From contig SHVJ01000001.1 in NCBI GenBank assembly GCA_009694295.1, forward strand, positions 71,286 to 107,717: a stretch of 36,432 nt of DNA. The letters are read 5' to 3'. The notes beneath the pieces are model-generated. The model did no database searches. It saw only the letters and a list, made by a program, of their open reading frames with translations, and was not told the DNA's origin. Position numbers and translations under genes: made by a program. This DNA comes from Acidimicrobiia bacterium (GTDB taxonomy: Bacteria > Actinomycetota > Acidimicrobiia > IMCC26256 > PALSA-555). Below, in pieces: positions 29,575-36,432 of this stretch (position 1 is the first letter of the stretch; the number at the start of each line of letters is the position of its first letter).

Positions 29575-29603
29575 AAGATAGACGCCCATCCGCTTTCCGG
29601 CAA
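29575..29603 (-). promoter_or_regulatory. predicted groES promoter
   Basis: Minus strand TTGCCG-N17-TATCTT ending just upstream of CIRCE. Confidence 0.5.
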
Positions 29604-29709
29604 ATGGGCAGCACTCCCGGCACATGGGCAGCACTCCCGGCACATGGGCAGCACTCCCGGCACATGGGCAGCACTCCCGGCAAATGGGCAGCACTCCCGG
29701 CACATGGGC
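29601..29709. repeat. 20-bp tandem repeat array (5 full copies plus partial)
   Basis: CA[A/C]ATGGGCAGCACTCCCGG at 29601, 29621, 29641, 29661, 29681, then CACATGGGC. Confidence 0.97.
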
Positions 29710-32560: not shown

Positions 32561-33154
32561 TCAGGCGAAGGTGCGAGCCAACGCGCGCTTCGCCACCACG
32601 AAGTCGGCGCGCGACTGCGCCAACGCGCCGCCGCCATTGCGAAGCACTGCCGAGGGGTGCAACGTCGGCACGAGCGTGACGTTGCTCCCTGCGACCGTCA
32701 CCGCGAATTCTTGGCCCCGCAGCTTGGTGATCCCCTCCTTGGTGTCGAGCAACAGCTTCGTGGCGAAGTTGCCGAGCGTCATAATCACCTTCGGCGCCAG
32801 GAACCCGAGCTGCGCCTCGAGGTACGGACGGCACGCGGCAATTTCCTCAGGTTGCGGATCGCGGTTCCCGGGCGGCCGACACTTCACGACGTTCGCGATG
32901 TACACCTCGTCACGCGTCATCCCGATGCCATCGATCAGACGAGTGAGCAGCTGGCCCGCGCGCCCGACGAACGGGATCCCCTGCTTGTCTTCCTCGGCAC
33001 CCGGTCCCTCACCCACGAACACGAGGTCGGCGTTTGACGCGCCGGCGCCGAACACCACCTGAGTTCGTCCCTGCTCGGCCAACGGACACTTCGTGCACGC
33101 GAGCGCGTCATGCTCGAGGTCTTCCCACGAGTTCCAGATCGGTGCCTCGAGCAT
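32561..33154 (-). CDS. family 4 (Fe-S) uracil-DNA glycosylase
   Basis: [19 protein letters not shown]...[53 protein letters not shown]. Confidence 0.94.
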
Positions 33155-33171
33155 GGGTTGAAGTCTGCCCC

Positions 33172-34086
33172 CTACGTCTGGCGGACGGCGTTGCGCACCG
33201 CCTCAGCGACTGCGTCGGTGGCAGCCACGCGCAGGCGATCCAGGCCTGTGGGCGCGTCGAGTTCCCGCGTGCCGGTCGCGAGTGCGATCACGAGATCGCC
33301 GTCGTACCGGGTGTGCGATGGGGAGATCGCTCGCGCGAGGCCGTGATGCCCGCTCTCGGCCAGCAGTCGGCACTCCAGCTTCGTGAGCGCGGCGTCGGTG
33401 GCGATCACGACCAACGTGGTGTTTTCAACTGGGCTGGTGTTCTCGAAGAGGCTCTCTTCAGGATCAGGGAAGGCACCGACTTCCTCGGGTGCCGTGGAAC
33501 CGGCGAGGATCGAGCCGTCGCCGTCGACCACATCGCCGACCGCGTTGACCACCACAATCGCCTGGACGCCCGGACCCGTGGCCACACCGAGACCACCGGC
33601 CACCGCGTGCTCAGCGCCGCGCCACTTTCCGATGGTCGCACCTGTCCCCGCGCCAACCCTGCCTGACACGGGCCCAGACGCGGGCCCAGACGCGGGAACG
33701 GATTCCGCCGCGTCGGCGGCTTCGGCCGCAAGCCGACCCTGCACCGCGCCGGGGGGCTTGTCTTGGCCTTCAACCCCAGCCAAGTCGTAGATCGCTGCGG
33801 TCGGCACGATGGGTACCGGACCGCCACGCGTTGGATACCCGCGGTCGCGTTCGGCCAGCCACGCCATCACTCCATCCGCTGTGGCCAACCCGAATGCCGA
33901 ACCGCCGGTGAGCACGACTGCGTCGACGTGCTCGACGGTGCGAATGGGATCGAGGAGGGCGGTCTCGCGCGTGGCCGGCGCGCCGCCGCGTACCTCACAC
34001 GAACCAACGGTCCCGGGCGGACACAAAACCACGGACACGCCGGTTCCGTTTCCGGTCCAGTGGCCCAGCTGAATCCCGGTCTTCAC
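33172..34086 (-). CDS. peptidase family S58 (DmpA-like aminopeptidase)
   Basis: GIQLGHWTGNGTGVSVVLCPPGTVGSCEVRGGAPATRETALLDP, VLTGGSAFGLATADGVMAWL, GRVGAGTGATIGKWRG. Confidence 0.92.
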   Translation of the reverse strand: MKTGIQLGHWTGNGTGVSVVLCPPGTVGSCEVRGGAPATRETALLDPIRTVEHVDAVVLTGGSAFGLATADGVMAWLAERDRGYPTRGGPVPIVPTAAIYDLAGVEGQDKPPGAVQGRLAAEAADAAESVPASGPASGPVSGRVGAGTGATIGKWRGAEHAVAGGLGVATGPGVQAIVVVNAVGDVVDGDGSILAGSTAPEEVGAFPDPEESLFENTSPVENTTLVVIATDAALTKLECRLLAESGHHGLARAISPSHTRYDGDLVIALATGTRELDAPTGLDRLRVAATDAVAEAVRNAVRQT

Positions 34087-35162
34087 ACCGAGGCCGCGTC
34101 GGGGGCTTGCTCGCCGGAGTACGCGCCTACCTCACGGGCGAAGTCGAGCAACAGGTCGTCCAATGCAACGGCTCGTTCCAACATGATCGTGTGGCCGGCT
34201 CGCTCCAAGAGGACGAGCCGCGCCCCAGGAATGAGGCGTGCCATGCGCCGCGACTCTGCCGGCGGCGTGAGCAGATCAGCCGTGCCACCGATGACCAAGG
34301 TGGGCAGATCGATACGCGAGAGATCGGGCGTGAGGTCCATGCCAATCAACATCCGCAGAGCTTCACGGCCTGTCTCGACTGGGCACGTGGCGAGCATCTC
34401 GCGGATGAGCTCCACGTGGCTCGCCACCGGGTCGCGGCCGAAGCCCAACCGCGTGAGCATGAGCCCGAGATCCGGGTTGGCCATGATCCGGCCGAGCTCG
34501 AGCTTGTCCGACGCCCGCTCGGCAAGAGAACGTAAGCGCCGCGTCGCGCTCACCTGCATCTTGGCCAGCGACGAGAGCAACACGAGCCCTCGCACCCGCG
34601 TGCGCGCGATCTCGGGGAACTGCACCGCGAACGCTTGCGCGGCCACACCGCCCATCGAGTGACCAACGAGGATGACGTTTCGTAGGTCGAGTGTTTCGAG
34701 CAACGTGCGCACGTCCCAGGCGAGGTTCTCGATCGAGTGGCCGGTGTCGCCGCTCACCGACTCGCCGTGGCCGCGTGTGTCGAACGCAACGACTCGCACG
34801 CCATTTTCCTGCAGCGAAGCATGACTTGGCAAGGAAGCGAACTGCTTCACCCACACCCGCGAGTCGATGGTGACGCCGTGCGAGAGGACGATGCAGAGCT
34901 CTTCGGGTCCTGACGGATCAGGAGTTTGGGACCCCGAGTCGAAGACCTGGATACTGCCGCCGTCGTGGCTCGGGAGCCGTCGTTGCGACACGCTCGCCAG
35001 GAACGTCGCAAGCATCTCGTCGAGCACACCGGCGTCGGGATCGGGTCGATTGCTGAGCCCATGGCGCACCGCGCGCTGCGCGGCGTAGCCGGCTCCGACG
35101 AGTCCGGCCGCGACGCCAACCGTGATACCGGCAACCTTGAGCGCTCGCTTCCCGGCGCTCAT
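34083..35162 (-). CDS. alpha/beta hydrolase
   Basis: VLSHGVTIDSRVW, VVAFDTRGHGESVSG, VILVGHSMGGVAAQAFA, GGTADLLTPPAESR, ERAGHTIMLE. Confidence 0.93.
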   Translation of the reverse strand: MSAGKRALKVAGITVGVAAGLVGAGYAAQRAVRHGLSNRPDPDAGVLDEMLATFLASVSQRRLPSHDGGSIQVFDSGSQTPDPSGPEELCIVLSHGVTIDSRVWVKQFASLPSHASLQENGVRVVAFDTRGHGESVSGDTGHSIENLAWDVRTLLETLDLRNVILVGHSMGGVAAQAFAVQFPEIARTRVRGLVLLSSLAKMQVSATRRLRSLAERASDKLELGRIMANPDLGLMLTRLGFGRDPVASHVELIREMLATCPVETGREALRMLIGMDLTPDLSRIDLPTLVIGGTADLLTPPAESRRMARLIPGARLVLLERAGHTIMLERAVALDDLLLDFAREVGAYSGEQAPDAASV

Positions 35163-35246
35163 GTTCGGGCGCTCATGTTCGGGCGCTCATGTTCGGGCGC
35201 TCATGTTCGGGCGCTCATGTTCGGGCGCTCATGTTCGGGCGCTCAT
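35161..35246 (-). repeat. 14-bp tandem array (6 copies) of closed ATG...TGA mini-ORFs
   Basis: Minus-strand unit ATGAGCGCCCGAAC x6; plus-strand ATGTTCGGGCGCTC from 35161 to 35244. Seven ATGs; the last is the hydrolase start. Confidence 0.97.
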
Positions 35247-36406
35247 GCCTCACCCAGATACACGCGGGGAACCCGGGGGCCAAGGCGAGTCGTCACCTCG
35301 TACGAGATGATCCCGAGCTTCTCGGCCCACTCAATTGCAGTGATCTCTTCGGTGCCCTGACTACCAATCAGCACAACCTCATCATCCACCGCGACTACCG
35401 GCACGCCGGGCGCAGCCGAAGACAGGTCGACGACAAGCTGATCCATGGTCACGGAACCGGCGATGCGGTGCCGGCGGCCACCGATGAGCACTTGGCCACC
35501 CACAAGACCGAGATTACGAGGGACACCGTCGGCGTAGCCCGCGGGAACGGTGGCGACCTGAGTATCGGCGGCGGCGGTGAAGTGCCGTCCGTACGACACG
35601 CTCTCTCCGGCCGCGAGCGGCTTCACGTGCGAGACCTTCGCCTTCAGCGCGAGCGCCGGACGCAACGGCACGCGCCCCGCGAGTGCGGGCGACGGTGGGA
35701 TGCCGTAGATCGCGATTCCACAGCGCACGAGGTTGAACCGGGCACGCGGATGCGCGATCGCCCCAGCAGAGTTGGCCGCGTGCACCAGTGGCGGCACGCG
35801 ACTGCGCGCGTGAAGCGCGGCGAGCAGCGCATCGAAGCGGTCGAGCTGTTGGTTGGTATACGGGTTGTCGGGCTCATCGGCCACGGCGAGGTGGGTGCAC
35901 ACCCCTTCCAGCACGAGTTCCGAACGAGATTCGATGCGCTCGATGAGTGAGATCGCGGCATCAGGCGCGCACCCCACTCGGTGCATGCCCGTGTCGACCT
36001 TGAGATGCACCGGGAGCGGCTGAGCCCTCCCCTCGTGGGCCTCCCCAGCATCAGCGACTGCCTGCGCAAGCGCGTCGATCCCGTTCGCCGTGTAGACGAC
36101 GGGCGTGAGCCCACGGGCAACGACGGTCGCGGCCGCGGCCGGGACCGGTTCCGAAAGCACGAGGATGCGCGCGTCGATTCCCGCGTCGCGCAGCTCCACG
36201 CCTTCCTCCACGAGCGCAACGCCGAGCCACGTGGCCCCCGCTTCGATCGCGGCCCGCGCCACTGGCACCGCGCCGTGCCCGTACGCGTTGGCCTTCACCA
36301 CCGCGAGCAGCTCCGCCGCGGCTGCGGCGCCGATGAGCGTGCAGACGTTGTGGCGGATGGCGTCGAGATCGACCTCGGCCCAGACCGGTCGAAAGTCCTG
36401 CGTCAC
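35243..36406 (-). CDS. alr: alanine racemase
   Basis: PVWAEVDLDAIRHNVCTLIGAAAAAELLAVVKANAYGHGAVPVARAA, HLKVDTGMHRVG, SYGRHFTAAADTQVATVPAGYADGVPR. Confidence 0.95.
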   Translation of the reverse strand: MTQDFRPVWAEVDLDAIRHNVCTLIGAAAAAELLAVVKANAYGHGAVPVARAAIEAGATWLGVALVEEGVELRDAGIDARILVLSEPVPAAAATVVARGLTPVVYTANGIDALAQAVADAGEAHEGRAQPLPVHLKVDTGMHRVGCAPDAAISLIERIESRSELVLEGVCTHLAVADEPDNPYTNQQLDRFDALLAALHARSRVPPLVHAANSAGAIAHPRARFNLVRCGIAIYGIPPSPALAGRVPLRPALALKAKVSHVKPLAAGESVSYGRHFTAAADTQVATVPAGYADGVPRNLGLVGGQVLIGGRRHRIAGSVTMDQLVVDLSSAAPGVPVVAVDDEVVLIGSQGTEEITAIEWAEKLGIISYEVTTRLGPRVPRVYLGEA

Positions 36407-36432
36407 AAGCCGTGACTCACGTGATGTCGGCC

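Follow-up and report, generated by a model that had tools for sequence, protein, structure and literature searches.

On the minus strand of the window (the whole 36,432-nucleotide stretch of Acidimicrobiia DNA analysed here), the alanine racemase gene alr is joined to a downstream alpha/beta-hydrolase gene by a chain of very short, overlapping open reading frames. The features of this locus, with the basis for each call in brackets, are:

33172–34086, minus strand: gene of the Peptidase_S58 family, with a GTG start overlapping the hydrolase TGA as GTGA (Pfam, ORF, reading)
34083–35162, minus strand: alpha/beta-hydrolase, 359 amino acids, orthologous start (Pfam Abhydrolase_1, 4e-26; relatives align from residue 1)
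35163–35246, minus strand: array of six identical 14-bp units, ATGAGCGCCCGAAC (sequence, TRF, shuffle control)
35229–35246, minus strand: mini-ORF 1, MSART* (direct reading)
35215–35232, minus strand: mini-ORF 2, MSART* (direct reading)
35201–35218, minus strand: mini-ORF 3, MSART* (direct reading)
35187–35204, minus strand: mini-ORF 4, MSART* (direct reading)
35173–35190, minus strand: mini-ORF 5, MSART* (direct reading)
35159–35176, minus strand: mini-ORF 6, MSART*, with a TGA overlapping the hydrolase ATG (direct reading)
35248–35254, minus strand: GGTGAGG, Shine-Dalgarno (SD)-like, in the last bases of alr and immediately ahead of ATG 1 (anti-SD duplex energy)
35243–36406, minus strand: alr, alanine racemase, 387 amino acids, with a TGA overlapping ATG 1 (Pfam Ala_racemase_N and Ala_racemase_C, ORF)

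Read directly on the minus strand, alr ends ...CTG GGT GAG GCA TGA, its stop (TGA, 35245–35243) lying inside an ATGA, and is followed by six copies of ATGAGCGCCCGAAC with 0 mismatches. After the sixth unit comes ATGAGCGCCGGGAAG..., the hydrolase opening MSAGKRALKV; the stretch ATGAGCGCCGGGAAGCGAGCG... behind the six perfect copies thus opens that intact gene, at the seventh ATG (35162–35160). The 14-bp unit carries the start signal of the second gene, of which six extra copies lie between alr and the hydrolase. Because the unit is 14 bp long (3n+2) and contains ATGA, successive copies interlock, every TGA sharing bases with the ATG that follows: every mini-ORF spans 18 nt (ATG AGC GCC CGA ACA TGA, MSART*) and shares 4 nt with its neighbours. 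The junction holds seven consecutive ATGA overlaps, each an NTGA stop/start overlap of the kind that defines a −4-nt coupled gene pair. TRF called a 94-bp array with a period of 14, 6.7 copies and 100% matches, and the pattern of four ATGA at period 14 gave 4 overlapping matches in the window compared with 0 in 100 dinucleotide shuffles.

A preliminary description had read this chain of six MSART* frames at a 14-bp period correctly, including the seventh ATG as the hydrolase start; its span of 35152–35248 contains the array and also takes in a few flanking bases, the exact units running from 35246 to 35163. It also noted that the flanking frames are unaffected by changes in copy number, which is true, but equally so for any stop-start insert. 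What is special to a 3n+2 unit with ATGA is that the −4-nt overlap between a stop and the next start is kept at any copy number. The array is not a phase-variation switch in which copy number toggles the frame, as both the flanking frames and the −4 overlap stay constant. A search of 33000–36432 against Rfam and a plasmid megablast of the locus gave no match.

The hydrolase and the Peptidase_S58 gene also overlap, as GTGA, indicating that −4 junctions are used more than once in this operon, and the Peptidase_S58 gene appears to be the next link of the same predicted coupled operon. The start of alr (36403–36432) looks like a further GTGA overlap, with a frame open to the contig edge ending at its TGA. 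A separate 12-bp repeat (33665–33696) lies within the Peptidase_S58 gene and gives a PASGPASGPVSG-like protein stretch.

Both genes flanking the array are constrained, with a dN/dS of 0.108 for the hydrolase (dS 0.59) and 0.112 for alr (dS 0.47), values that place the intact hydrolase under purifying selection. They bear on whether the array is an assembly artefact of a draft genome. The assembly comprises 105 contigs and is 64.5% complete, and the end of the contig is about 1.2 kb from the array; however, a 94-bp array fits within an ordinary short read, the flanking genes are intact, constrained and conserved in order, and the same architecture occurs in unrelated assemblies (below). We therefore regard an artefact as very improbable. 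Within this 2.1-Mb draft, at its 64.5% completeness, the repeat (searched as a unit pair) was found at a single locus.

To place the array among its relatives, we searched for the hydrolase in 60 of them and read the alr-hydrolase junction in loci having both genes. Three congeners (90, 70 and 64% identity) and the three nearest family members compared lack the repeat, their junction being a single ATGA or GTGA. Many more distant relatives have a single NTGA, and others have a short gap. Among the genomes compared, the array is private to that of the window. Given the single NTGA in the six nearest relatives, it is an 84-nt insertion, made up of six start-region units, at an ancestral −4 junction. 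This copy-number comparison, proposed in the preliminary description, set one ATGA or GTGA in close relatives against six extra units here and, together with purifying selection on the hydrolase, bears out the suggestion made there that an ancestral ATGA junction was expanded. The six units are identical, whereas dS to the nearest relative is about 0.5–0.6; with about 0.5 silent substitutions per site separating the two genomes, the array is either recent or homogenised.

How might such an array arise? Near-identical head-to-tail units (100% over 6.7 copies) that are fewer or absent in close relatives are the pattern of a slippage VNTR. Outside ATGA, 7 of 10 positions of the unit agree with the first bases of the hydrolase itself (P about 0.01). 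TRF on 381 kb of the genome (a sample of genome stretches plus the window, slightly overlapping) detected 9 arrays of at least 3 units with periods of 12–21. One of these, a 20-bp unit repeated 5.7 times (29597–29709), occupies the tsaD-groES junction, ahead of groES; at that position L1032, the nearest relative, carries three shorter units, and each of the other two congeners a single copy of the motif. The abundance of arrays in this genome, the groES array being similarly expanded, suggests that slippage is sufficient as an origin. Combined with the likeness of the unit to the first hydrolase codons, this makes replication slippage the best-supported origin; neutral slippage was the alternative offered in the preliminary description.

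The SD-like GGTGAGG at the end of alr forms a predicted anti-SD duplex of −7.5 kcal/mol at ATG 1, whereas the same calculation found no SD at ATGs 3–7, the hydrolase start included (−1.9 kcal/mol). The hydrolase start lies about 80 nt from the alr stop and has no Shine-Dalgarno site. RNA folding gave no clear change in its accessibility (0.35 with the array and 0.34 without). A scan for sigma-70 promoters and terminators, which is weak for such genomes, found nothing. In E. coli gene pairs, restart falls by 40–80% when the start is moved to +14 nt and is nearly gone at +38 nt, the published loss setting in beyond about 20–38 nt (PMC10666635); in a phage gene pair, the start codon closest to the stop is the one used (PMC12548453). 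The lack of an SD at ATGs 3–7 and this published loss of restart with distance suggest that ribosomes have no short-distance path to the hydrolase other than the chain. Long-distance scanning is also reported in work cited by PMC10666635 and PMC12548453 and, if operating, would make a relay unnecessary.

We infer that the start region of the hydrolase, at what was originally a single −4-nt ATGA junction, was recently expanded by VNTR-type slippage, and that ribosomes finishing alr would restart at ATG 1, make MSART and stop, repeating this for six rounds before reaching the hydrolase. Each stop-to-restart distance would stay at −4 nt despite the 84-nt displacement of the hydrolase start. If r is the chance that any one restart succeeds, the hydrolase would be made at roughly r^6 of the level given by the ancestral junction (0.53 for r = 0.9 and 0.016 for r = 0.5). 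This would lower hydrolase expression without necessarily abolishing it, and perhaps also that of the GTGA-coupled peptidase behind it. Coupling should thus be attenuated rather than abolished. Very short ORFs may also shed ribosomes through peptidyl-tRNA drop-off. A termination-reinitiation relay is the best-supported account of how the array may work; counting against it is the possibility that ribosomes initiate at the last AUG without an SD or on a leaderless mRNA. Overall, we consider it somewhat more probable than its competitors combined that a recent slippage expansion at an ancestral −4 ATGA junction has given a six-step restart relay to the hydrolase.

To look for similar relays elsewhere, we looked for five ATGA with a period of 14 in a genome collection covering 85,000 species, and for four ATGA at periods 10, 11, 13, 14, 16, 17, 19 and 20 in viral contigs, in both cases considering the matches listed, which were sorted by ORF context and then by protein families. 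In an actinobacterial MAG (L066, 3333–3434), a 14-bp relay with eight ATGs (MTLRP*/MTTRP*) leads from a histidine kinase to a GlpK-like FGGY kinase; a relative with 97% identity has a single ATGA at this junction. In an alphaproteobacterial MAG (L096, 4486–4545), MIRSR* occurs four times between UbiE and UbiB and is followed by MIRSLRN, the first ATG lying just behind the ubiE stop. Relatives of the latter with zero units have a spacing of 2–9 nt, and four genomes (L991, L992, L993 and L998) carry one conserved 14-nt unit directly before ubiB (MIRSP*, MARSP* or VIRSP*) with a −4-nt overlap; further relatives have spacers that lack a 14-nt relay. This series of 0, 1 and 4 units appears to show the kind of path proposed for the window, namely duplication of a start region followed by expansion.

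Four viral contigs contained comparable chains: MSKI* four times at period 11, between the terminase large subunit and a 79-aa ORF (L655, 5106–5155); MRTSTI* four times at period 17 (L412, minus strand, about 450–520); MSLPK* three times in 14-bp units (L237, minus strand, about 2585–2630); and MSVAT* three times in 14-bp units, between a terminase C-terminus and a 74-aa ORF (L269, 266–311). Two of these, L655 and L269, lie directly behind the terminase large subunit. Derivation of the unit from the native start holds for the window (P 0.01), UbiB (P 0.002) and one phage case (P 0.03), and does not hold for GlpK or the remaining phage cases. The relays at the HisK-GlpK, UbiE-UbiB and phage junctions are independent of that in the window.

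Several other candidates were set aside. Reading of the ORFs excluded L085 and L061, in which the arrays lie behind genes facing a convergent neighbour; L039, L055, L068, L075 and L137 have 7-bp arrays near starts, of a different kind from the −4 relay; and the gene junctions of the viral period-13 candidates L318, L301, L340 and L348 were unconvincing. A 19-bp array, ATGATACAATTTGTTTAAC, is common to viral contigs L977 and L979, where it separates a 711-aa ORF from another long ORF; it is not a −4 relay at its first ATGA.

If preservation of coupling mattered, arrays at junctions should favour 3n+2 periods. Under one symmetric criterion and among the matches listed, 13 of 405 arrays with 3n+2 periods were junction-sited, compared with 10 of 384 with 3n+1 periods (Fisher P 0.68). 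Requiring the upstream stop to be the first ATGA gave 7 versus 1 (Fisher P 0.07, post hoc, among the matches listed), a count that takes in the weak cases L696, L447, L197 and L829 and ORFs not all backed by family matches. There is thus no firm evidence of selection for the relay frame, although 7 versus 1 is a lead worth a full count.

These counts bear on whether the array is a purely neutral spacer, that is, a slippage VNTR in which the relay follows incidentally from the length of the unit and the hydrolase is translated independently of alr, by SD-less initiation at the last AUG or from an internal promoter. Minisatellites are common in this genome, ATGA arrays at junctions occur equally often with 3n+1 and 3n+2 periods among the matches listed, and promoter activity has been reported for the senX3-regX3 MIRU region of M. 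tuberculosis (PMC4213456). Against this stand the absence of a promoter-like site in our scan (a weak test), a hydrolase start that lacks an SD, and the post hoc 7 versus 1 among the matches listed when the first ATGA is the upstream stop. We judge a neutral spacer to be a plausible minority reading, clearly less likely than the relay.

The preliminary description had suggested that the array could act as a tunable attenuator. In a selected version of this reading, slippage would vary the unit number, which would set the hydrolase:alr ratio. The layout is compatible with this, the units are identical, independent cases occur in other lineages, and one-unit relays are present in four relatives of the UbiE-UbiB case. 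However, the array is found in one genome only among those compared, some UbiE-UbiB relatives have spacers without a 14-nt relay, and the survey, among the matches listed, showed no significant frame preference, which leaves a selected attenuator unsupported in a genome with many slippage arrays. We consider it improbable, and the array is most likely not a selected regulator. A broader generalization would make start-stop relays a small class of translational attenuators that act in cis and recur across bacteria and phages. On this view, each would arise when the start region of a gene at a coupled junction slips, would be tolerated since a 3n+2 ATGA unit keeps −4 coupling whatever the copy number, and would lower output geometrically as copies are added, allowing fast, reversible tuning of one operon gene; we think this unlikely.

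Among known systems, the closest to the relay are MIRUs (for example, the tandem units at senX3-regX3; PMC12548453, PMC4213456). In both, the repeat unit contains a short ORF with a −4-nt overlap with the next gene, as do the MSART* units, and tandem units lie between two co-directional genes. MIRU mini-ORFs are inserted at start codons and −4 coupled, which has been proposed to leave the gene behind the insertion almost unharmed (PMC12548453). At senX3-regX3, the units number two to three in tandem and measure 77 or 53 bp (PMC4213456), whereas the unit here is 14 bp, outside the MIRU range of about 50–80 bp; the two are set apart by unit length and not by consensus alignment. MIRUs are also dispersed and apparently mobile, whereas the window array occupies one locus (in a genome 64.5% complete) and seems to originate locally from a start region. 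Its layout is that of a MIRU relay, but by these features it is no MIRU.

The relay shares with ATGA termination-reinitiation coupling (PMC6728339, PMC10666635) a −4-nt overlap at every step and an ordinary ancestral junction, and differs from it in that seven overlaps, linked by five-codon ORFs, follow one another where such a pair has a single one. The axe-txe two-codon minigene (PMC8708949) and synthetic upstream nonsense ORFs (PMC13255528) likewise place a very short ORF beside a gene, with a measured effect on translation in cis that depends on frame and distance; those are single mini-ORFs, whereas the window series is known from sequence. TAACTGA-type heptamer arrays (PMC4679880) and VNTR phase variation also involve intergenic tandem repeats near starts, replacing the SD region, but the heptamer shuts all three frames and lacks a chain of overlapping starts. 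Our search of the open-access literature turned up no previous account of short tandem start-stop relays.

The array is real, derived and mechanistically legible, and mostly explained by slippage at a coupled junction. ATGA as a gene-coupling signal is already known; its short tandem start-stop expansion is apparently new, as far as the open-access literature goes. Published data conflict on whether post-termination ribosomes must restart at the overlapping codon or can scan (PMC10666635, PMC12548453), and such relays supply a natural series with which to address this. Relays with 0, 1, 4, 6 or 7 units discriminate between the models: if restart alone operates, output should drop geometrically as units are added and disappear once the frame is broken, whereas scanning predicts dependence on distance alone. 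The array also offers an example of how an insertion at a coupled junction might become nearly harmless, as proposed for MIRUs.
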